Of a DNA stretch of 64,000 nucleotides, positions 17,185 through 44,214 are shown piece by piece. This DNA comes from Chloroherpeton thalassium ATCC 35110 (GTDB lineage Bacteria; Bacteroidota; Chlorobiia; Chlorobiales; Chloroherpetonaceae): positions 1,222,001 through 1,286,000 of the forward strand of contig NC_011026.1 in the NCBI RefSeq assembly GCF_000020525.1, given 5' to 3'. The notes below the pieces were generated by a model that saw nothing but the letters and a program-made list of their open reading frames with translations, was not told the DNA's origin and ran no database searches. Position 1 is the stretch's first letter. Each line of letters starts with the position of its first letter. Position numbers and translations under genes: made by a program.

Positions 17185-20100
17185 TTATTTTTTCACACTC
17201 CAAGCGGCGAAAAGTTCTTCTTTGCTTTTTAAGCCGAGCTCTGGCAAACAATGATTGCACACATACACGCTCGCACGATGGCGATTTTCCCACATTTCTT
17301 GATGTGCTTCTGGCAATTGCTCGAACTCCACAACCAGTGGCTCGGAAACTTCAATCATGCCGGCTTCGATCATCGCGTTCAGTTCGATAACTTCGGCGGC
17401 GTTGCTCATGTGCGTGCCAAAAATATTGGCAGTTGGCATGTAAATTTTTCGCTGGCGCATCCAAACTTGCGGCGCGTAGAAGCTGTATCGCCGGCCTTTC
17501 ATTTCCTCGGCATAAATCACCTTGCCGGTAAAATGTCGGGCAAGCGCCGTGCTAACCGAAAGCGTATCTTGCCCGGCGCGTTCAAATACAACATCGGGAT
17601 TTCCTTTGGCATTATCGGCGGTGCGAAACGGCATGCAGGCTTCCTGCGCGAATGCTTTGAAAACCGTGTCATTAAATTCGCGCACCGCATCTCTGAAATC
17701 GTCTATGTTGTGTTTGGGATTTGGGAGATTGCGCATGGTGGCCGGCCAACTAAACGCAGATTGCGTGCGCTGCAAGGTTTCAAGGCTGAAAACATGCTTG
17801 ACGGCGCTACCAAAACCGAGCGATTGAACAAACTCGCGTTGCGCGTCGGTGTTGCACGCCACCACAATTCTCGCGCCGCGTTCGCGCAAGGTTTCTATAA
17901 TTTCAAGCCCGTATTTATCCACAATGCAGCTTTGTTCGGTTTCTATGCCATAATAGGTCAGCACCGATTGATTTGCTCGAAAACGAATGCGGCGAAGCAT
18001 TTCGTCGGGTGTGGCGAGGCCAGCTTTGCCAATAAATGTGAAATGGTAGCCGCTCGACGCGCCAAAAAATGTGAGCGTGCCGCCTTCATCTAAAAGCTGA
18101 AACGAACGTGGAAAGCTCAGTTCGCCGGCATGCGACACCACATAGTCGGCCAACTTGCCCTGATTTTGCTCCTTAAATTCGCTGACCAGTGTTTCGCCAG
18201 CTTTTTCCCATTTTTCCCATTGGTCGGGATTTTCCGGCACTTTTGTGAACGTTTTCGAAAGCTCGTTTTCCATGCGGTTGATCGTGCCGCCCGCGCCAAT
18301 GGCTTGAATAAATTCCGCGCGTTCTTTTGTGGAAACCAGTCCCACCGTGTGCAACCGATTTTTGAGTGCAATTTTCAAAGCGGCTAAGCCGGTTCCCGTT
18401 GCCGCGCCTTCGATGAAAATGCTTTTGCCTTCCTCCACTTGCAGCGTGCAAAACAGCGCACGGTAAATGGTGCTCATGGTTAAAATATAGCTGCCACCCG
18501 CTTCGATGCTAAGATCTTGTGGTTTTAGAACGCACTGTGGCGCTTGTGCGAGCATAAATTGCTGATGCGAGCCATCGCCGGTTTCGTAGCCTTGAATTTT
18601 AAAATTGCAATACATCGGGTCGGTGCCGATCATCGGCGAAAGCAACTCGCTTTGGCCTGGATAAACGGAAACCAAGTCGCCGACTTTCAAGCGGCCTTCG
18701 CGGAGCACTTCGCTGCCCATTTCAACAATAAGCCCAACACCGCCACTTCCCGTGATGTAAATATCTTTATCGACATGTTTGAACTGCGAAATCGGAATAC
18801 CCACAATAGCCCAAATGTCGTTGAAATTGACTTCGCTGGCGAGCATGTAGAGCAGCACTTCGTTTGCGCCAGGCCGCTCGACCGGAACAACAACTTTTTG
18901 CTCGAACTTTTCAGGATCGCCGTGTTCCGGCGCGCCAGTAATGGGGCTTCTGATAACGGCTTGCGCGTATTGATATTTCGGAATTTTGGTGACGGAAGGA
19001 TAAAACGGTGCATCCATTTTCAGCAAATCGCCTGTTTTCAAGCTTTCGGATTCTTCTTTCTCGCTCAGGAAAAGAAACGGTCTGGTGGCAAGCGGCGCAG
19101 ATTTTTTTTCCAAAAACGCTTTGATGCCGGCTTTTCCTTCGTTTGGGGCAATGACCGCTTCGGCGAAAAGCAAGGCTTCCGTTTCAAAGCCTTTGGTGAG
19201 GCCTTTTTCGTAGCCGTCTTTCACGGCAGCAATAATGCGCTCGGCGGCTTTTTGGCGACCGCTTAGCGTTGCCTGGTGAACCAGACGAAGAACTTCATGG
19301 TCAGCAGCCACATCGTCTGGAAATGAGCCGACAGCCATCCATTGCATCAAAACTTTTTGGCGATATTCCACGGCGCTTTTGAGGCGTTTGCTGTCGCCGG
19401 GTTTTTCCAAAATGAAATTGGTGGCCAATTCCACAGCGCGCGTAACGGCGTCGGTCTCGACCACTTCGTCAATCATGCCGATGTGCGCAGCGTCAGCCGC
19501 AGAAAGCAGCCTGCCGCCGAGCATAATTTCCAAAGACTTTTTGATGGCCGCGTGTCTATCGGAATAGCGTTCTAAAATGCGAGGCAGCCGCTGTGTGGCG
19601 CCATAAGCCGGCAGCAAGCGCAGGTTTATTTCCGGCTGACCGAAACGGGCTTTCTTTTCTGCAATGCGATAGTGGCAGGCCAGCGCAAACTCATTGCCGC
19701 CGCCAAGCGCTACGCCATTGATGGCAGCAATCACGGGCTTTTCCATGCACTCAATTTTGGTAAAAGCCAGGTGCGCGTTGTTCAGCGAAGTGAGCGCATC
19801 GTCCAGCGAGTGCATTTCGCGATAGAGTTGCTTCACATCGGCGCCAGCTACAAACGAGCGCGTGCCTTTTCCGGTGAAAATCACCGCTTTGACATTTTCG
19901 CGCCGCGCCAAATGATCCAGCACCGTGTTGAGTTCATCCAAGCTGCGTTCGTTGAGCGCATTGACCGGCGGATTAGAAAACTTGACGATCGCAATGAAAC
20001 TATCGCTTTTGACGGATGCGTATTGAATTCTGAAGTAGCGATATGCTTCATAAATTTGCTGCGAAGCCGCCGCCGCTTGTTTGCGCTTCCAATCGGCAAT

Positions 20101-22638
20101 TTTGCTTTTGATTTCGGGCAGCACCTCTGGATTTTTCAGCGCGGTTACGTCGCCAAGATCCTCGTCGTTCATCAAATGTTTAAGGCAACGGCGCATGTAT
20201 TTTCCGCTACGCGTTTCTGGAAACGCACTGACTTCGATATAATCGGATGGTACACTATCCGAACCCACATCTTTTCGAATGAGCTCATTTAAGCGGCGCA
20301 TGTCGTCTTGCATAAGCCGTTTGCCCTGAACAGCCAAAACAAACGCAATCGGCGTGAGGCCTTTTTCGCGATGCGGCCCGCCAACGACAATGACATTGCC
20401 AATCGGGGAATTGAGCGTCTGATTTTTATCCTTTAAAAGCGTGCTTTCGATTTCCTCCGTGCCAATTCGGCGACCCGAGACGTTAATCACATCGTCTGAG
20501 CGGCCATGAAAAGAATACGAGCCGCCAGCATGTTTCATGGCAAAATCGCCTTGTGTGTAGGCTAAAACCGGATTTTTGCCGTCCGACCAGCGCGACCAAT
20601 AGGTTTCGGTGTAGCGCGGAAGGTCGCCGAGCCATTGTTCTTTTTCAAATTTTTCAAGAAACGCTTCATCGTCGCCCCAAATGGTGCGAGCCAGCGAGGG
20701 AAAGGGTTTGGTGATAACCACTTCGCCGCGTTCTTCATTGTCAGCAACGCGATAAATTTCGCGTCCCTCTTTGTCTTTGCCTGTGCTGATCCAAACATCG
20801 CCAAAAACCCAAGGCATGGGATACGTGCGTGCGTCGGGTTTGAGAGGAAAGTGTTTGTTGTCGTAGAAATGCGTCCAAAGAATGCAGCCGTGCTCTGTTG
20901 CCCAATAGGAGTTGATGTAGCGCGGAGTGATAACTTTCATGCCAAATTCTTGCACCACCGGATTGCAGGGTTCAGCGAAAAAAGTGGCCACGCGCAAGCT
21001 TGAAAGATCACACTGCAAGACGTCTTCCAGGTTGAGCGGATTGGCCATCACGTGTTTTAAGAACGTGACGCCCGCTTTGAAAATCGTAACCTGATAGCGA
21101 TCGATGATGCTTGCAAAGCGTCCGGGACTTGGAAAAATCGGTGATCCTTCGGCTACAACGCTGGCGATTCTTGTCAAAAGTGTGGCGCTGATTAAATAAG
21201 ATTGGCCGGCAATCCAGCCCGGATCGGCAATAACATAAGCGGTGTCTTCGCCGCTGCGCGCATCAAAAGCTACTTTCATGGAATGTGCAACGCCAATCGT
21301 GAAACCGCCATGCACATGCACCGCGCCTTTGGGCTTGCCAGTCGAGCCGGATGTGTAAATAAAGAACAATGGAAACTCAGCATCGAGCGGCTCGCACATC
21401 GTGCTTTTATAAATCGCCCAAATAAAGGCTTTGCCTTCCAACGCAAGCAATTCGGCCTGGTTTTTAACCATAAAGCCAGCTTCTTGCGCCCGCTGAAGCA
21501 GTTCCTCAGCCGCCTCTTCGAGCAATTCATGCGACCATTTATCGCGGTCGGCTCGCCAGTGAATCGCTTGGCCGCTGTGCTTCACCACAATCACATGTGC
21601 CACACGCGAGGGCGCGGACACCAAGCCTTTGGCCAGTTCCGTTCGAATTTTGGATTTTTGCTTGATCGATAAATCCGATAATTCGGTGAGCGCGTGTCCA
21701 ACACAGGCCATGACATCGGCGCGCTCGACCGTGCTTTCCAAACAAAGCTTTGAGGTGATTTTTCCTAATATCCTGTTTGAAACCGCATCCTCAGCCTGCA
21801 TGGCTTTAAGGCGTTTGGCGATGAGCTGGGTTGCCGTTTCAAGCGGGATATAGTTGTCAAGTGCTTTGTCGGTGTATTCTTCCTTAAATTTTAGGAGCTG
21901 CGCGTTGCGATAAGCGCCATCGGTGGTAATGATGACTTTCGCGCCTGCATTTTCAAGCCGGTCAGAAAGCGATTTTGCAGAAAACCCACCAAAGATGGCC
22001 GTGTAAATAATGCCGAGTCGCTTGCAGGCTTCGGTGTAGTAGATCTGCTCCAAAATGTTTGGCATGTTTAGGCAAACGCGGTCGCCTTTTTTTAGGCCAA
22101 GTTTTTTGAGCACGAGTGCGCACTTGGCTACTTCATAAAGCAGCTTTTTGCGGGTGATGCGAAAAGAGCTAACCGGACCTCCACGACCATCATTTTTAGT
22201 GGCGTCCCAGCGATCGGACTCAAAGTAGAAAGCCGTTTCCTCGCCGTGTCCTGCCATCACATGCCGGTCGACTTCGTTGAAACAAGCGTTGGTCAGTCCC
22301 TTTTGAAACCAACGGAAAAACGGAGCTTGCGCGTCATCAAAGGTCTTCTTCCAGGGCGTGAACGAAGCTGGATAATTGACCTGAACGGATTCTCCGGTTT
22401 CGGCATCCAAGCCAATCCACTTTTTTTCTTCATCCGAGAAGGTAATCCACGCGTTCAGTTTTTTATCGAACCAATGAATTTCGCGCTTGGCGATATCGCC
22501 ATGAAACTCCTCAAATCGATAGATACAAGCATCTTGCATCTCGATATAGTCCCGATGGTCTCTTATGGGGTTTGTCCGCACGGCGTCTTCCGAATGCGAT
22601 TTTAGCGGGAACTGCCCCGCTCGTTTTTGCTCTGCCAT
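17185..22638 (-). CDS. Trifunctional propionyl-CoA synthase
   Basis: A single 1817-residue chain carrying out three steps of the 3-hydroxypropionate pathway: 3-hydroxypropionate to its CoA ester, dehydration to acryloyl-CoA, and NADPH reduction to propionyl-CoA. Domains in order: acyl-CoA synthetase (residues ~90-860) with YTSGSTGKPKG at 428-438, DVINVSGRRIGTEEIE and the adenylation lysine in TRSGK (Lys813); enoyl-CoA hydratase (~880-1190) with both catalytic glutamates, Glu983 (GGGNEF) and Glu1003 (GQPEI); and an MDR-type enoyl reductase (~1230-1817) with GAATGTGLAA at 1411-1420. The length is close to that of the Chloroflexus enzyme. No other 3-hydroxypropionate-pathway gene lies nearby. 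Confidence 0.92.
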   Translation of the reverse strand: MAEQKRAGQFPLKSHSEDAVRTNPIRDHRDYIEMQDACIYRFEEFHGDIAKREIHWFDKKLNAWITFSDEEKKWIGLDAETGESVQVNYPASFTPWKKTFDDAQAPFFRWFQKGLTNACFNEVDRHVMAGHGEETAFYFESDRWDATKNDGRGGPVSSFRITRKKLLYEVAKCALVLKKLGLKKGDRVCLNMPNILEQIYYTEACKRLGIIYTAIFGGFSAKSLSDRLENAGAKVIITTDGAYRNAQLLKFKEEYTDKALDNYIPLETATQLIAKRLKAMQAEDAVSNRILGKITSKLCLESTVERADVMACVGHALTELSDLSIKQKSKIRTELAKGLVSAPSRVAHVIVVKHSGQAIHWRADRDKWSHELLEEAAEELLQRAQEAGFMVKNQAELLALEGKAFIWAIYKSTMCEPLDAEFPLFFIYTSGSTGKPKGAVHVHGGFTIGVAHSMKVAFDARSGEDTAYVIADPGWIAGQSYLISATLLTRIASVVAEGSPIFPSPGRFASIIDRYQVTIFKAGVTFLKHVMANPLNLEDVLQCDLSSLRVATFFAEPCNPVVQEFGMKVITPRYINSYWATEHGCILWTHFYDNKHFPLKPDARTYPMPWVFGDVWISTGKDKEGREIYRVADNEERGEVVITKPFPSLARTIWGDDEAFLEKFEKEQWLGDLPRYTETYWSRWSDGKNPVLAYTQGDFAMKHAGGSYSFHGRSDDVINVSGRRIGTEEIESTLLKDKNQTLNSPIGNVIVVGGPHREKGLTPIAFVLAVQGKRLMQDDMRRLNELIRKDVGSDSVPSDYIEVSAFPETRSGKYMRRCLKHLMNDEDLGDVTALKNPEVLPEIKSKIADWKRKQAAAASQQIYEAYRYFRIQYASVKSDSFIAIVKFSNPPVNALNERSLDELNTVLDHLARRENVKAVIFTGKGTRSFVAGADVKQLYREMHSLDDALTSLNNAHLAFTKIECMEKPVIAAINGVALGGGNEFALACHYRIAEKKARFGQPEINLRLLPAYGATQRLPRILERYSDRHAAIKKSLEIMLGGRLLSAADAAHIGMIDEVVETDAVTRAVELATNFILEKPGDSKRLKSAVEYRQKVLMQWMAVGSFPDDVAADHEVLRLVHQATLSGRQKAAERIIAAVKDGYEKGLTKGFETEALLFAEAVIAPNEGKAGIKAFLEKKSAPLATRPFLFLSEKEESESLKTGDLLKMDAPFYPSVTKIPKYQYAQAVIRSPITGAPEHGDPEKFEQKVVVPVERPGANEVLLYMLASEVNFNDIWAIVGIPISQFKHVDKDIYITGSGGVGLIVEMGSEVLREGRLKVGDLVSVYPGQSELLSPMIGTDPMYCNFKIQGYETGDGSHQQFMLAQAPQCVLKPQDLSIEAGGSYILTMSTIYRALFCTLQVEEGKSIFIEGAATGTGLAALKIALKNRLHTVGLVSTKERAEFIQAIGAGGTINRMENELSKTFTKVPENPDQWEKWEKAGETLVSEFKEQNQGKLADYVVSHAGELSFPRSFQLLDEGGTLTFFGASSGYHFTFIGKAGLATPDEMLRRIRFRANQSVLTYYGIETEQSCIVDKYGLEIIETLRERGARIVVACNTDAQREFVQSLGFGSAVKHVFSLETLQRTQSAFSWPATMRNLPNPKHNIDDFRDAVREFNDTVFKAFAQEACMPFRTADNAKGNPDVVFERAGQDTLSVSTALARHFTGKVIYAEEMKGRRYSFYAPQVWMRQRKIYMPTANIFGTHMSNAAEVIELNAMIEAGMIEVSEPLVVEFEQLPEAHQEMWENRHRASVYVCNHCLPELGLKSKEELFAAWSVKK

Positions 22639-22946: not shown

Positions 22947-23636
22947 TTAACTGAATTTTTGCTTGAACGCTTCAAAATCGGTGATGATGATTTTATTCAT
23001 GTCGCGTTCGATGAGGCCATCGCGTTCGAACATAGACAGCACGCGCGAAATGGTTTCGCGGGACGTGGCTGCATAATTGGCCATTTCCTGTTGGCTGGCA
23101 AAATTATCGATTTCAACGCGTCCGCGCCGCTGGCGACCAACATCGTTGGCAAGTCGCAAAATAACCGAAGCCACTTTGCCAATGGCGTCGGAAAGGGAAA
23201 TGCTTTTAATTTGGTGGTCGGTTTTGCGCAAGCGGCTCACCATTTCGCGAAGCAGCGCAAGGGAAATTTTCGGATTTTTCTCCAAAAGGTCGAGAAAGTC
23301 TTCGGCTGCAATTTTCAGCGCATGAACTTTAGAAATGGCGATCGCATCGGCAGAGCGAACAGCGCCATCCAAAACGGACATTTCTCCAAAAAAATCTCTT
23401 TCGGCTAAAATGGCTAAAATAACTTCTTTATAATCTTCGTTGGTTCGGGAAATTTTAACAAACCCATCCAAAATGATGTAGAGGGCATTACCGAGCTCGC
23501 TTTCAAAAAGAACGACATCATCCTTTTTGTAGGAAAGAAGTTGGCTTCGCTCTATAATGCTTTTTAGCTCATCGTCAGTAAGTGTTTCAAAAATACTGAC
23601 TTCGCCAAGCCTTTGTATAAGTTCTTTTTGTTCCAT
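22947..23636 (-). CDS. Crp/Fnr-family transcription regulator
   Basis: A 229-residue regulator: N-terminal cyclic-nucleotide-binding fold with GNALYIILDGFVKISR and the phosphate-binding cassette FGEMSVLDGAVRSADA (including the Crp-like Glu and Arg-Ser), then a helix-turn-helix FASQQEMANYAATSRETISRVL. There is no N-terminal cysteine set, so it is not an Fnr-type oxygen sensor; the cassette looks able to hold cAMP or a relative. Upstream of the propionyl-CoA synthase gene on the same strand, 300 bases away; whether it controls it is not shown by the sequence. Confidence 0.88.
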   Translation of the reverse strand: MEQKELIQRLGEVSIFETLTDDELKSIIERSQLLSYKKDDVVLFESELGNALYIILDGFVKISRTNEDYKEVILAILAERDFFGEMSVLDGAVRSADAIAISKVHALKIAAEDFLDLLEKNPKISLALLREMVSRLRKTDHQIKSISLSDAIGKVASVILRLANDVGRQRRGRVEIDNFASQQEMANYAATSRETISRVLSMFERDGLIERDMNKIIITDFEAFKQKFS

Positions 23637-34220: not shown

Positions 34221-35849
34221 ATGGGCATTCAGCTTTCAAATGATTTGCTATCAATCCAAGAAGCTCGAGACTTGCTTCAGCAAGCCGCCGAAGCGCTTAA
34301 GACATTCAAACATTTTTCGCAAGAAAAAGTGGACGCTATCGTGAAAGCGATGGCCGAAGCTGGCTACGAAGCTCGCGAGGAGCTGGCCAAAATGGCCGTC
34401 GAGGAAACCGGTTTTGGAAAAGTGGAGGATAAAATTCTAAAAAATATTCTCGGCTCAAAAACGCTTTATGAATACATCGCCCCGATGAAAACATGCGGGA
34501 TTATAGATAAGCGAGAAAATGGCAAAATTTGGGATATTGCCACGCCGATGGGCGTTGTAGCCGCGTTGATTCCTTCGACCAATCCAACGTCGACGATGCT
34601 CTACAAATCAATTATTTCGCTGAAATCCAGAAACGCGATTGTCGCTTCGCCACATCCGGCGGCAAAAAAATGCACCGCCCGCGCAGCGCAAATCATGCGT
34701 GAGGCAGCCGTAAGAGCCGGCGCGCCGGAAGGCTTGATTCACTGCATGACGAACCCAACGCTGGAAGGCACAGGGGAACTCATGAAACACAGTTTGACGG
34801 GCGTGATTTTGGCTACGGGAAGCACGCCAATGGTGAAAGCGGCGTATTCGTCAGGAAAACCGGCTTATGGCGTTGGGCCGGGCAACGTGCCTGCTTTTAT
34901 CGAGCGCACGGCGAATGTCAAAAAAGCGGTGGCCGACATTATTTTCGGAAAAACATTCGATAACGGCACGATTTGCGCTTCTGAGCAAGCTGTGGTTTGC
35001 GATTTGCCGATTAAATCTCAAGTGATTGAGGAGATGAAAAAACGCGGCGCGTATTTCTTAAATCCTGAAGAGAAAGAAACACTTTCGCGCTTTATGTTTC
35101 CACGCGGGTTAAATGCGGCAGTGGTTGGAAAACCGGCGGCAGTTATTGCAGCGCAAGCCGGAATTACAGTGCCGGAAACTACAAAAGTTTTGGTGGCGGA
35201 GCTTGCCGAGGTTGGAAAAATGGCGCCACTCTCTGCTGAAAAGCTTTCGCCTGTGCTGGCGTTTTACACCGAAGATGGTTGGGAAGCGGGTTGCCGGCGC
35301 TGCATGGAACTGCTTGATTTTGGCGGCATTGGGCATTCGCTTTCGTTGCATTCGCAAAACGAGCATGTCATCATGCAATTTGCCATGCACAAGCCCGCGC
35401 ATCGGATTTTGATTAACACGGTTTCGTCGGTGGGCGCAGTGGGCTATACAACCGCGCTGGCGCCATCTTTGACGCTCGGCCCAGGCACCATTGGCGGCTC
35501 TATCACAACGGAAAACGTTGGACCAATGCAGCTCTTGAATATCAAACGTGTTGCATTCGAAACCAATCCAGTCAATGATAAGGACGGCAATCCGGTTGCT
35601 CAAGCTGCAGTCGCAAGCAAAGAAGCCACCGTTAACGCAACCGCGCAAGTGGCAACGCAAACGAAGCCGAGTTATAAAAAGCTTCCTGAAAGCAGCATCA
35701 TGGCGGAAATCGAGGAAAGAATTCGTTTGAAAGCGGGCAACACGCCAGCCGGGTTTTTAGGAAAAAAAGTCACACCCGTTAAGGAAAATCAGAGCGGAAA
35801 GCTGACAAGTGAAGAGGTCGATGAAATTGTAAAAACCTTTCAAAAATAA
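34221..35849 (+). CDS. CoA-acylating aldehyde dehydrogenase with C-terminal extension
   Basis: A 542-residue member of the EutE/PduP/AdhE-N class of aldehyde dehydrogenases, which interconvert an aldehyde and its acyl-CoA with NAD. Diagnostic strings: MGVVAALIPSTNPTSTMLYK, ASPHPAAKKC and GTICASEQAVV with catalytic Cys252. Beyond the catalytic core (ends about residue 455) there is an alanine/threonine/lysine-rich linker, then LTSEEVDEIVKTFQK, an amphipathic helix. In microcompartment enzymes a similar tail targets cargo; no shell gene is seen here. Substrate not determined. Confidence 0.85.
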   Translation: MGIQLSNDLLSIQEARDLLQQAAEALKTFKHFSQEKVDAIVKAMAEAGYEAREELAKMAVEETGFGKVEDKILKNILGSKTLYEYIAPMKTCGIIDKRENGKIWDIATPMGVVAALIPSTNPTSTMLYKSIISLKSRNAIVASPHPAAKKCTARAAQIMREAAVRAGAPEGLIHCMTNPTLEGTGELMKHSLTGVILATGSTPMVKAAYSSGKPAYGVGPGNVPAFIERTANVKKAVADIIFGKTFDNGTICASEQAVVCDLPIKSQVIEEMKKRGAYFLNPEEKETLSRFMFPRGLNAAVVGKPAAVIAAQAGITVPETTKVLVAELAEVGKMAPLSAEKLSPVLAFYTEDGWEAGCRRCMELLDFGGIGHSLSLHSQNEHVIMQFAMHKPAHRILINTVSSVGAVGYTTALAPSLTLGPGTIGGSITTENVGPMQLLNIKRVAFETNPVNDKDGNPVAQAAVASKEATVNATAQVATQTKPSYKKLPESSIMAEIEERIRLKAGNTPAGFLGKKVTPVKENQSGKLTSEEVDEIVKTFQK

Positions 35850-38077: not shown

Positions 38078-41000
38078 TTACGAACATCCGCTTGTCATGC
38101 CGCAATCTTCGCAGACCGTGCAGCTTCCGTTTTGCTTGACATTCATCGAGGCGCAATTTGGGCATTGCTCGCCCGTGTAGCCCTTCACACGCGCTTCCAG
38201 AATTTTCTGCGTTTCGCTCATCATGCGCGAGCTTGGCGCGGTCGTGTTCGGGTGCTTTTTGTTTGCGTGCTTGCCCTCCGACGACATTTTAATTTCGGGA
38301 TGCGCGGGACTGGCATGTTTCGGTTCGGCAACCGCGCTGCCTTTTTCCTTATCCGCGTGGCCATTGCCTGATGGCAGTTCATCAACGGCTTTCACATGCA
38401 CGAAATCCGTGCGCTGCAAGTAATCATAGCCGATGGAACGAAACACGTAATCCAAGATGGAAGTGGCGTTTTTAATTGCCTCGTGGCCGTCCACGCGGCC
38501 AGCCGGTTCAAAACGGGTGAAGGTAAAACTATCGACCAGCTCTTCAAGCGGCATGCCGTATTGCAACGCTTTGGAGGCCAACACGGCAAAGCAGTTCAGC
38601 AAGCCTTTGAACGACGCGCCTTCTTTATACATATCAATGAAAATTTCCCCCAGCGTGCCGTCTTCATACTCGCCGGTTCTGAGAAAAACCTTATGCCCGT
38701 TCACATACGCCTCGCGAATGTAGCCCTTGCGCTTTTTCGGCAGCCGCCTGCGTTCGTTGTGTTTAGCAATGCGCTCTTCGATGTGCGAATGAACTTCCTT
38801 CGGCCCTTTGGTTTCGTCGAGCGTTTGTTCGTCGCCGAGCATGACGATTTCGTCCAAGTCGTCGTAGCTCGCGCTGTTGAGCGGTTGCGAGAGCTTTGAC
38901 GTGTCGCGGTAAAGCGCAATGGCTTTGAGCATGTAGTGCCACGAGGAAAGATAAACTTCGCGAATTTGCTCGACCGTCGCTTCGGCGGGCATATTCACGG
39001 TTTTGGAAATGGCGCCGGAAATGAACGGCTGCACGGCGGCCATCATGCGCACATGCGCCATATAATCAATATAGCGCTTGCCTTTGCGACCGCATTTGCT
39101 CGCGCAATCAAATACCGGCAGATGCTCGGGCTTGAGGTGCGGCGCATCTTCAATCATCATCGTGCCGCAGATGTAGTCGTTTGCCGCCTCGATTTCCGCT
39201 TTTGCATAGCCGAGCGACTTGAGCATATCGAAGTTCGGGTCGTTCAGTTCTTGTTCGCTAAAGCCGAGCGATTTGCAAAACTCCTCGCCGAGCGTCCATT
39301 TGTTAAACGCAAATTTAATGTCGAACACAAGCCCCAGTTGCGACTCGACGGCTTCCAATTTTTCCGTCGTAAATCCTTTTTCCAAAAGGCTTTCGCGCGT
39401 GACGAACGGAGCGCCTTCGAGCGTGCCGTGCCCTTTACAATAATTTTCAATGTCTGCAATTTGCTCGTCGCTATAACCGAGATTCATCAGCGATTTATGA
39501 ACGGATTGATTGACGATTTTGAAGTAGCCGCCGCCCGCCAGCTTTTTGAATTTGACGATAGCAAAGTCCGGCTCGATGCCCGTCGTGCCGCAATCCATCA
39601 CGAGGCCGATGGTGTTGTGGCTGACAAACCCGTTGGCGATGTAAGTTACGTTTTCAGGCACGGAAAGGTCGTAGGTGAGCGCCTCGCCGCCGTCCTCGTT
39701 GTCCTCAACGACATCGTAATAAAAGTTTAAAGCTCGCAGCAGCGATTCGCACTCGACTTCGCCCAAAGCCCGCTCCAAGCTCGTGCGCGTCACAGCGCCG
39801 CGCCGCGTGATGGAAAGTTGCAGCGCGTTTTGCTCGTTTTCGCAAGCGAGCGCCGATTCGAATTCCGGTTCGGTCAAATAAACATCGTCGCTCCGTTCGC
39901 TTTGCAGCGTTTGTTCGGTGATAATCGCCGCCTGTTTGCGCTCGCCCATAAATCCGATTTTTTCCTTGAAGGCGTGTGTATAATTGCGATTGAGCAGGCG
40001 AAGGACATAGAGCGTAGATTGTCCCCAGCCGGAAATATCTTCCTTCGTCGTCGTCGGGAAACCGAGCGCGAGCATGAGCGATTTCACCTGCAAGGCAAAT
40101 TCCTTTTGCGACGACGTCCAACACGGCACGCCGTTCGTAACCGTTCCGTCCGCTTCGAACAGGCCGCGCAAAAATGCGGTGTAGCAAGCCGTATCGTTGG
40201 TGTAAAGAATCGCGTTCGGAATGCGCGGCAGCCAACCTTTGCCCTTGTGATGCTCGCTCGGCGGCAACTTGGCAAATCCGCAGGCCTGCCACCAAAGCGT
40301 CAAGCGCACGGAATGAATCGCCACCTCGATATATCCCTGCTTGGCTTCAACATGCACCTCAAGATTAAATAACGAGCGGCTTAACTCGGCGAGCCGTTGA
40401 ACGACGTCCGCGTCTTCTTTTGAGACGCAAAAACGAAGGCCTTTGCTATGAAGCGAGCCGTCGCCCATGAAATAGCCGACCAATTCGGCAAGCTCGGGCG
40501 TGACGATTTCCGGCGCAACCGCGCGAGGCTCGGCGTTCCAATGCAGTTCTCCGAGCGGCGGCAAGAGTGCGGTTTGCGGTTTGCCGAAAACGGTTTTCAT
40601 GCCGAGCGGCACAATGTCGCCTTTGGCAATTTCGCCGAAGCGTTTCCAAACCCATTCGCCCGTTTTTGTATCAACGACTTTGATGCGATGCTCCGGTGTG
40701 CCTTGAATTTCGTAACCGGCAGAGGTCACGATTTTGCGCGTTTTTGCCACGCCGTTGATATAAAACTTGGTCGCCTTTTTTGCGCCCTCGTCGGTCATCA
40801 CCTTGAAATCGGCATCTTGCCACTTTGCGCCCTGCGTGTCGCCGAGCGAACCGAGCGGCACCAGTCCGCGCTCGGTTGCGACAAGCGAGCCGCCCACAAG
40901 GCAGCCGGTCGGCGCAATCACACTGACCTGCGCGTTACGGAAGCCGTGTTTTTCGCCTAATTTCAATGCCCGATCCCAAGTTTCGCCCGCCACTTTGCAA

Positions 41001-43978
41001 AGCTTTTTCGGGCAATGCGCCGGGTCGAGGCTCATCGGAACGACGGATAAATCCTCATAGTCTTCTTTCGGGGCGTTGTGTGCAGCGTGGCGATGGTTGC
41101 GAACGACGCGCAGCATGGCGTCGCGGTTGTGCGCAAATTTCGGAAATGCGCCGATGTCGGCGGCCATTTCGGCGGAAGTCGCATAGGCTTCGCCGGTCAT
41201 AATCGCGGAAATTGCGCCCGCAACGGCAAGGGCTTTGGGCGAATCATACGGCGTGCCGGAAACCATCAGAAGCGAACCGAGGTTGGCAAATCCCAAACCG
41301 AGCGTGCGATAATCGTAGCTTTGCTGCGCGATTTTCGGCGAGGGATATTGCGCCATCAAAACGGAGATTTCAAGCGTGAGCGTCCAAACGCGGGCGGCAT
41401 GGCGCAGCGCATCGGTATCGACATCGCCCGTTTTTTCATTGACAAAATGAATCAGATTGAGGCTCGCAAGATTGCACGCCGTGTCGTCGAGGAACATGTA
41501 TTCGGAGCAATTATGAACGCCGATGCCGTTTGCGACAAAATGATGCGTTTCCGGTTCGGTCAAATCAAAAACCGGTTCTTCGCCGATGTATTCAAGCGAT
41601 TTGATTTTATCGTTGAGCGGTTCGGCATAAGCCGCGACGGATTGGTTGAGTTCGGCGAGCTTTCGAGCTTTTTCCGTTTCCGGGAAAAATCCGATTTCGG
41701 CTTCAAAGCGCACGCGCGAACTTCTGCTAATGCGCAGGCTGTGCATCTCCAAAACCGGATATTCTTTCACGCCGCCTTTGCCGTCAGGTAAAATTGCGGT
41801 CAAATTTCCGGCGCGGCGATTTTCATAAATCTTTGCTTTGATGCCAAAATTCAGGAGCAACAATTGCACTTGCCCGAGCAACGGAAGCGAAACCGAATCC
41901 AGCGCCACGTATTGCGATTTTTCGCCGTAGTTTGCCACCGTTCCGTCGGCGGTGAAAAGTCCTCTGAGCAGCGCGGCTTGCTCGGCGCGGGAAAGTCGGA
42001 AAACGCTATCGGTGAAAATTTTCTCGGCGCTGCCCTTGTCAAGCACGGCAAATTTTTCCATCACTTCAAGGATTCGCGGGCTGCCGACGGAAACCCGCGC
42101 TGTGGTTGCGGTTTCCACAACCGCACCTTTTTTATTATGCTCGCCAAGTTCGGGACGCAACTCATTGATAAATGAGTTTGCCCATTCCGCTACATCACGC
42201 TCGGCTTTGTCAAGCGTGAGAAATCCGACGCGGCGATCCTCACCGGCGGCTGTTTTTTCGTTTACCCTTGTAATGCAGCCGTCGCCCGTGAGCAAGCCGA
42301 TAAGCTGCGCCATGTTCGCCGAGCCGGTCGTTTCCGAGCCGAATTCCCCGCCGACCAGTCGGACGACATCGTCTTTCGTAAGTTCGCAGGCTTTTACATC
42401 GCCGCGATTTTCGGTGAAAACCAAATGGTCGCCGGTCAGTTTCAGCCGGTAGCCGCTTTTGGTTTTGAGTTCATAAACCGGTTTCGTGCCGGTCGGAAAT
42501 ATTTTTTCAACCCAATGAAGTTTGCCGTCGAGGCTTTTGATGCCGCGAGCCTCGCCGACCAAATCGCCGATGCGCTCCAAGCCTCTGTCGGTCGCAACAA
42601 GCGTCTCCGCCGTGACGCATGGGTTGCTGGCGTTGATTCTGCCGTCGTTCGGGCAGGTGTGCCATTCGTTGATGGTCGTGTCGAATTGCAAGCCCGGGTC
42701 GGCGCATTTCCAAGCGGAAAAGGCGATTTTGTTCCACAACTCCGCCGCGCGAACGGTGCGGCAAACCGAGCCGTCGGTGCGCCAACGCAGTTCCCACATC
42801 TCATCGTTTTCAACGGCCTGCATAAATTCGTTGGTCAAACGAATCGTGTTATTTGAATTTTGTCCGCTGACAGTGCTATAAGCTTCCGATTCGTAATGCG
42901 TGTCGTAACTTTCAAAGTCGAGCGAAGTGAAGCCCTGCGAGACGAGCGAAAGTGTGCGCAAAATGTAGTTCATCGGCACGCCGCGATAGAGCGCCCGCTG
43001 GATGAGGTCGTTGAGCGCCGGGTTGGTTTTTCGGTCTGCGCCGTTTTCGAGCGCTTCGTGCAAAATGGCTTTCAAAAAGGTGGAATTGATTTTTGAACCC
43101 GCCACCATTGCGGCCACTTTTTCTTCTTCCTTCGCCTTCCACTCGATGAATTCTTCGATGTCGGGATGGTCAATATTGACAATCACCATTTTGGCGGCGC
43201 GGCGAGTCGTGCCGCCGGATTTGATGGCGCCGGCAGCCGCGTCAAAGATTTTTAAAAAGCTCATCAAGCCGGACGATGTGCCGCCGCCCGAGAGCATTTC
43301 GCCTTCGGCGCGAATGTTGGAAAAGTTCGTTCCTGTGCCGCTGCCGAACTTAAAGACGCGGGCTTCGCGAACGACCAAATCGAAAATGCCGCCTTCATTG
43401 ACCAAATCGTCTTGGACGGATTGAATGAAACAAGCGTGCGCCTGCGGTCGGGTGTAGGAATCCTCCGATTGAGTGAGTTTTCCAGTGTCAGGATCGACGA
43501 AGAAATGCCCTTGCGAACGCCCGCTGATGCCGTAAGCTGCTGCAAGTCCGGTGTTGAACCATTGCGGAGAGTTCGGCGCGGCCATTTGTTTGAGCAGCAT
43601 GTAGGCGGTTTCGTCGTAATAGGCCTGTGCATCTTCCGGCGAATCGAAGTAGCCGTAGCGCTCGCCCCAGTCGCGCCAGCAAGCGGCCATGCGATGCACG
43701 ACTTGCTTAATGGACGTTTCCCCGCCAAAAACTTGATTTCCGTCTGCGTCTATAACCGGCTTGCCGTCTTTGCTGAGCTGCGGCACACCGGCTTTTCTGA
43801 AATACTTTTGTGCTAAAATATCCGTAGCAACTTGCGACCAATGAACCGGAACTTCCACATTGTGCATCTCAAACACCGTCGAGCCATCGGGGTTGCGAAG
43901 CACCGACGAGCGATAGGTGTACTCAAATAAATCAAACACAGTGCAATCCGGTTTGCTAAAGCGTCGTAAAATTTTCAT
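38078..43978 (-). CDS. nrdJ: Adenosylcobalamin-dependent ribonucleotide reductase NrdJ with two inteins
   Basis: Class II ribonucleotide reductase that makes deoxynucleotides without oxygen using coenzyme B12. The ORF extends upstream to 44068, but family starts resemble [20 protein letters not shown], at 43978. The host protein is interrupted by two inteins (370 and 430 residues), so the mature chain is about 1166 residues. Extein signs include [12 protein letters not shown], the active site NPCSE (Asn, Cys, Glu), CNLASLNL with the second redox cysteine, [22 protein letters not shown] and a C-terminal zinc-ribbon [22 protein letters not shown]. No cobalamin riboswitch is evident upstream. 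Confidence 0.95.
39614..40903 (-). other. Intein 2 of NrdJ, inserted at IAPTG/TIGL
   Basis: A 430-residue element. Starts Cys ([20 protein letters not shown]), block B is [10 protein letters not shown], and it ends GFVSHN before the +1 Thr of TIGLVMDC. Endonuclease motifs [11 protein letters not shown] and [12 protein letters not shown] are present. It sits in the phosphate-binding loop PTGT. The first 20 residues resemble those of intein 1 (LVAT-RGL), so both belong to one family. Confidence 0.93.
41510..42619 (-). other. Intein 1 of NrdJ, inserted at NASNP/CSEY
   Basis: A 370-residue self-splicing protein element. N-terminal splice residue is Cys ([18 protein letters not shown]), block B is near [10 protein letters not shown], and it ends GIGVHN before the +1 Cys. 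The LAGLIDADG endonuclease core is visible as [11 protein letters not shown] and [12 protein letters not shown], so it should be a homing intein. The +1 Cys is the cysteine of the NPCSE active-site motif. Confidence 0.93.
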
Positions 43979-44214
43979 GGGTTTAAAACTTCTTTCTAAA
44001 AATCTGAATAGTTTCTTGCGTGAATTGCAGCGGCATGGCAGCCGAATATCGAGCCATAAATATAACAAATCAGCTCTCGGGAGAGATATTTTCTTTTGTT
44101 TAAAAACGCAACCCGTTCTTTTTCATTCTGTGTGGAATAAAAATAGACGAAAGAAGCAGCGCTCTAATGATAAAGTGCCTTGTCTTTCTGTTGGTTCGGG
44201 TTTGTCCGTTTGAA

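Follow-up and report, generated by a model that had tools for sequence, protein, structure and literature searches.

A propionyl-CoA synthase gene of Chloroherpeton thalassium, probably working outside the 3-hydroxypropionate bi-cycle, and its split counterparts in related Chlorobiales

The propionyl-CoA synthase gene and its neighbours

The window (the whole stretch of 64,000 nucleotides analysed, from contig NC_011026.1 of Chloroherpeton thalassium ATCC 35110) contains, at 17185-22638 on the minus strand, a single uninterrupted ORF of 1817 aa with an ATG start. Its Pfam domains are arranged in the order ACAS_N, AMP-binding, AMP-binding_C, ECH_1, ADH_N and ADH_zinc_N. The best solved relative is 6eqo, which we take to be the propionyl-CoA synthase (PCS) of Erythrobacter NAP1 (the PDB record is titled "Acetyl-coenzyme A synthetase"). 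Residues 27-1814 of the query align with residues 25-1840 of this chain (2048.9 bits, E=0; 53% identity over the whole chain), the next-best solved structure scores far below it, and chance is excluded as an explanation of the match. The Erythrobacter enzyme has been described previously (PMC11599936, PMC10176485).

Three enzyme parts lie on the one chain in the order expected of PCS. The ligase part (3-hydroxypropionyl-CoA synthetase, ACS-like; residues ~93-847, 20098-22362, minus strand), delimited by Pfam/NCBIfam and the alignment to 6eqo, retains the adenylation motifs SGSTGKPKG, WATEHG and SGK(813)YMRR, with K813 as the A10 lysine. The enoyl-CoA hydratase (crotonase) core, with its C-terminal part and a linker (residues ~873-1235, 18934-20022, minus strand), keeps both catalytic glutamates, E983 and E1003, in the alignment, and has A1011 and A1014 in place of glycines that are invariant elsewhere. 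The enoyl (acrylyl)-CoA reductase part (residues ~1236-1814, 17197-18933, minus strand) has the MDR/zinc-dehydrogenase fold and is related to crotonyl-CoA carboxylase/reductase. From these parts and the end-to-end similarity to an authenticated PCS, the gene is predicted to encode an intact trifunctional PCS, in agreement with the original prediction, which had also named the full-length chain, the two glutamates and the adenylation lysine. The enzyme type is known, and the window gene adds one more example. It shares with the Erythrobacter enzyme the three parts, their order and the active-site residues, but differs by substitutions at otherwise invariant sites, including G585C, H723R, G1011A and G1014A, and by its host, a member of the Chlorobiales with ATP-citrate lyase.

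In Pfam/NCBIfam searches the flanking genes were those for an enolase, a trigger factor and a Crp/Fnr regulator, plus a 147-aa ORF that is uncharacterised and matches no family, so that the earlier statement that no cycle gene is adjacent holds. Directly upstream of PCS, across a gap of 308 bases, is the Crp/Fnr-type regulator gene (22947-23636, minus strand); we infer only that it may be linked to PCS regulation, and the adjacency is not shared by the relatives examined. Roseiflexus RS-1 joins PCS, malonyl-CoA reductase (MCR) and a carboxylase in an operon (PMC5459899), whereas the PCS of C. thalassium is not so placed. A foreign base composition of PCS was considered and rejected: its GC (0.51) and GC3 (0.55) fall inside the range of the other window genes, and the composition thus gives no sign of recent transfer. 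The description of the genome as nif-bearing was not confirmed, as no nif gene was found among the window ORFs scanned. Elsewhere in the window, a CoA-acylating aldehyde dehydrogenase (34221-35849, plus strand; TIGR02518 above cut-off) lies 11.6 kb from PCS, and a class II ribonucleotide reductase (38078-44068, minus strand) contains an intein (residues ~514-853) that includes LAGLIDADG endonuclease domains.

Genome-wide search for bi-cycle genes and a succinyl-CoA outlet

The genome is a single contig of 3,293,456 bp with 99.86% completeness. An SDR domain search of it found no protein of the size of MCR (~1220 aa, two SDR halves): 12 SDRs were detected at E<=1e-33, and the SDR ORFs do not exceed 349 aa, apart from weak partial matches, the longest within a 648-aa ORF. 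The identical search detects MCR in three relatives and thereby served as its own positive control. No match to TIGR04253 (mesaconyl-CoA isomerase) was obtained in this genome or in six relatives, and for the malyl-/methylmalyl-/citramalyl-CoA lyases the genome yielded nothing beyond a single weak PF03328 hit (489-aa ORF, 27.6 bits). With no MCR, no isomerase and no convincing malyl-CoA lyase, the 3-hydroxypropionate (3-HP) bi-cycle is not encoded in this genome, and the earlier view of a lone PCS outside a closed 3-HP cycle is upheld.

The bi-cycle genes that were found are those for propionyl-CoA carboxylase (by presumed substrate) and methylmalonyl-CoA mutase. There are two MmdA/PccB-type carboxyltransferases, one of them adjoining the beta subunit of a Na+-translocating decarboxylase, three biotin carboxylases, and the large and small subunits of methylmalonyl-CoA mutase (the large one above the NCBIfam cut-off). 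This is the outcome, together with the missing MCR, of the genome search proposed in the original prediction. The genome also has an AclA-type ORF (ATP-citrate lyase, 622 aa). It is accordingly predicted to encode an outlet from propionyl-CoA to succinyl-CoA, and green sulfur bacteria are reported to assimilate propionate by a route from propionyl-CoA to succinyl-CoA (PMC11269200). Given such an outlet, uptake of 3-HP or redox balance, the roles suggested at the outset, are reasonable for PCS. Among candidate sources of 3-HP within the genome, no convincing enzyme of the 3-hydroxyisobutyrate-dehydrogenase type was found (best E 2e-9), nor was a class-III CoA-transferase.

PCS and malonyl-CoA reductase in related Chlorobiales

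PCS was present in seven of the 98 genomes of the class: two in the family of C. thalassium (f1; C. thalassium itself and G087), one in family f3, four of nine in family f4 and none of 86 in family f2, which, judged from its number of genomes, must be the Chlorobiaceae. Outside f2, PCS carriers thus make up 7 of the 12 genomes of the order, and a sample of 394 genomes from the phylum contained no further PCS. In a maximum-likelihood tree that also included Erythrobacter, Aneurinibacillus and two haloarchaea, the seven Chlorobiales sequences formed one clade (support 100/100), as did those of f1 (100/99) and f4 (99/98). A tree that follows the families fits inheritance within the order better than a recent lone acquisition, and PCS probably dates far back among the Chlorobiales outside the Chlorobiaceae. 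The recent, isolated acquisition implied by the original prediction is not supported: PCS occurs in three families, its tree tracks them, and the sister families carry an MCR of the Chloroflexus type (see below).

Within f1, the PCS of C. thalassium and G087 share 57% identity, and G087 has the longest ingroup branch of the tree. The C. thalassium protein departs from the reference rows at 15% of their invariant positions, compared with 8-11% in f3/f4, 14% in the haloarchaea and 22% in G087, so that some change or loosening of function, e.g., in substrate use, is possible. Clearly relaxed selection on the C. thalassium PCS was considered and dropped, since a simpler invariant-site test overstated its excess and the clade-fair controls leave only the modest difference given by these figures.

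A PCS of full length, with no MCR in the DNA read around it, also occurs in Aneurinibacillus aneurinilyticus (L001) and on haloarchaeal plasmids (L019, L020), with 57% and 51% identity; none of the three is associated with a Chlorobiales gene. In Natrinema, unlike in C. thalassium, a cluster of the methylmalonyl-CoA mutase family is found 5.1 kb away from PCS. The Aneurinibacillus PCS (L001, 2361-10018) is flanked by two ORFs resembling uracil-DNA glycosylases and one resembling a uracil/xanthine permease (named by eye), and a link from pyrimidines to 3-HP is conceivable there. On a Haladaptatus plasmid (L021, 3230-12408) a free-standing PCS-type reductase adjoins genes for a hydratase, an acyl-CoA ligase and a BCCT transporter, a cluster looking like one for acrylate or DMSP degradation.

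The three sister-family genomes tested for MCR (G088 of f3, G089 and G092 of f4) each encode a protein of 1220-1231 aa with two SDR halves (L033 5230-8892, minus strand; L034 8372-12037, plus strand; L035 5421-9116, minus strand), with 69-73% mutual identity. These proteins match the solved full-length chains 8hi4 (1229 aa) and 8hjw (1219 aa) with more than 1100 bits, which we take to be the MCRs of Roseiflexus and Chloroflexus, respectively. For the C-terminal half, the scores are 789 and 762 bits against 8hi5 and 8j29 (the corresponding halves of the same two types) and a lower 638 bits against 6k8s. No SDR ORF of MCR size was found in G087 at E <= 1e-15; among the PCS carriers, the search for MCR covered these four genomes and C. 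thalassium. In G089, MCR and PCS are on one contig, ~31 kb apart, and in G092 a biotin carboxylase gene lies ~1.9 kb from PCS. Families f3 and f4 therefore appear, from their gene content, to encode the conversion of acetyl-CoA via malonyl-CoA and 3-HP to propionyl-CoA and to lack the bi-cycle's glyoxylate half. The resemblance to Chloroflexus and Roseiflexus lies in enzyme type and extends to the MCR of the sister families, but for the second cycle no isomerase was found in the seven genomes with PCS and no convincing lyase in C. thalassium. The co-occurrence of MCR and PCS in Chlorobiales was not described in the open-access papers searched, which is no proof of novelty.

In G088, G092 and G095 the PCS frame ends just after the hydratase motif GTQRLPRxL and restarts at a new ATG, the second ORF comprising the remaining hydratase part and the entire reductase (L024 5314-8475 and 9180-11567; L027 8885-12046 and 12698-15073; L028 9314-12330 and 14618-17006, respectively). 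The halves are separated by an antisense gene with a CxxCH motif and a weak but above-threshold match to Cytochrome_P460 in G088 (L024 8509-9081, minus strand) and G092 (L027 12079-12624, minus strand; 52% identity between the two), and in G095 by genes for a BsaWI-type restriction endonuclease and a DNA methylase (L028 12685-14600). An intron or intein as the cause of the interruption was rejected: Rfam returned nothing, and the DNA shows a stop codon, other genes and then a new ATG, i.e., a split gene. Purifying selection evidently acts on both halves (dN/dS 0.04-0.19; in the comparison with G088, dS approaches saturation). G095 is weaker evidence of the split because its PCS has two further frameshifts and its assembly 13% contamination. 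In G089 the frame is unbroken across the split site (the gene is spread over two contigs). The break and the intervening gene are shared by two families, and in the tree the unbroken G089 is placed between these; such a pattern points either to an early split followed by re-fusion or to transfer. PCS also exists as separate enzymes (PMC10176485); systems of separate ligase, hydratase and reductase follow the same reaction sequence, but the break in the sister families is inside the hydratase domain and not between domains. No split within the hydratase domain was described in the open-access papers searched, again no proof of novelty.

Possible role of PCS in Chloroherpeton and its relatives

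For C. thalassium we favour, with a probability of roughly 0.6, a PCS that sends 3-HP through propionyl-CoA to succinyl-CoA, as the surviving second half of an MCR-PCS arm that serves salvage of 3-HP or acrylate and no bi-cycle. By analogy with the solved and assayed homologue, the ligase domain would convert 3-hydroxypropionate, ATP and CoA to 3-hydroxypropionyl-CoA, the hydratase domain would convert this to acrylyl-CoA, and the reductase domain would reduce acrylyl-CoA to propionyl-CoA with NADPH. Propionyl-CoA would most likely be carboxylated by a biotin-dependent enzyme to methylmalonyl-CoA and converted by methylmalonyl-CoA mutase to succinyl-CoA, which would enter the reductive TCA cycle; the genes of this route are present, and we infer its flux and the carboxyltransferase substrate. 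The ancestral arm would have run from acetyl-CoA via malonyl-CoA, 3-HP and propionyl-CoA to succinyl-CoA, as the sister families still seem to encode, and in the Chloroherpeton lineage, which lacks MCR, PCS would salvage external 3-HP or acrylate, or draw on some other source inside the cell. The two f1 genes remain uninterrupted at 57% identity in genomes without MCR, so the frame has outlasted a deep divergence, which argues for a job independent of MCR, most simply the salvage of external 3-HP or acrylate. Chloroflexus excretes 3-HP.

That PCS serves a complete bi-cycle for CO2 fixation has next to no chance of being right and is already contradicted: PCS, the carboxyltransferases and methylmalonyl-CoA mutase are there, but the key genes listed above are missing from a near-complete, single-contig genome, and the presence of ATP-citrate lyase speaks for the reductive TCA cycle. 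MCR is absent from both f1 genomes and conserved sites have changed faster in this family, above all in G087, as would be expected of a remnant with little function after the loss of MCR; we nevertheless regard this as unlikely, because both genes remain intact at ~1800 aa, with a frame long maintained and the catalytic residues kept, and the rate of the C. thalassium gene is near that of the haloarchaeal PCS.

It is quite unlikely that an internal route to 3-HP has gone unrecognised and the arm from acetyl-CoA carboxylation still runs, for example through a non-SDR malonyl-CoA reductase or through an acylating aldehyde dehydrogenase, such as that at 34221-35849, paired with a dehydrogenase of the alcohol or SDR type. 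MCR is retained in the sister families, this aldehyde dehydrogenase gene lies in the same window as PCS and the genome offers the 12 SDRs mentioned; against this, there is no conserved gene neighbourhood, and the product of 34221-35849 is best described as an acetaldehyde dehydrogenase. A PCS acting chiefly on acrylate or propionate (in detoxification or propionate activation) in place of 3-HP would be in line with the Haladaptatus plasmids, where the PCS-type reductase adjoins enoyl-CoA hydratase, acyl-CoA ligase and BCCT transporter genes, and with the reduction of acrylyl-CoA by the C-terminal domain of PCS (PMC4029986), but it is improbable, as the whole three-domain architecture, needed only for 3-HP, has been kept.

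The salvage reading for C. thalassium can be embedded in a wider scenario, which we consider about evenly balanced between right and wrong. The non-Chlorobiaceae Chlorobiales would have inherited an MCR-PCS arm turning acetyl-CoA and two bicarbonate into succinyl-CoA, with no glyoxylate half, for acetate assimilation in photoheterotrophs; PCS would have become a two-subunit, hydratase-split enzyme in some of them, and the Chloroherpeton family would have lost MCR and kept PCS for salvage of 3-HP. Loss of pyruvate:ferredoxin oxidoreductase and of ATP-citrate lyase was reported for the photoheterotrophic Chlorobiales in a paper that makes no mention of 3-HP, propionyl-CoA or malonyl-CoA (PMC9560492); an AclA-type ORF is present in G092. 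An MCR-PCS arm would give such photoheterotrophs a path from acetyl-CoA to succinyl-CoA.

The surprise of this locus lies in the relatives, i.e., in the predicted combination of a Chloroflexus-type MCR with PCS in Chlorobiales and in a PCS apparently split inside a catalytic domain. Such a natural split of the hydratase part would let biochemists probe how toxic acrylyl-CoA is contained in a two-chain chamber. PCS and MCR serve as markers of the 3-HP bi-cycle in genome surveys, and since PCS, on its own or accompanied by MCR, is present here in an order usually characterised by the reductive TCA cycle and without the other half of the bi-cycle, these markers would over-call autotrophy. The MCR-PCS pair is a testable answer to the question of how photoheterotrophic Chlorobiales may make C4 compounds from acetyl-CoA.
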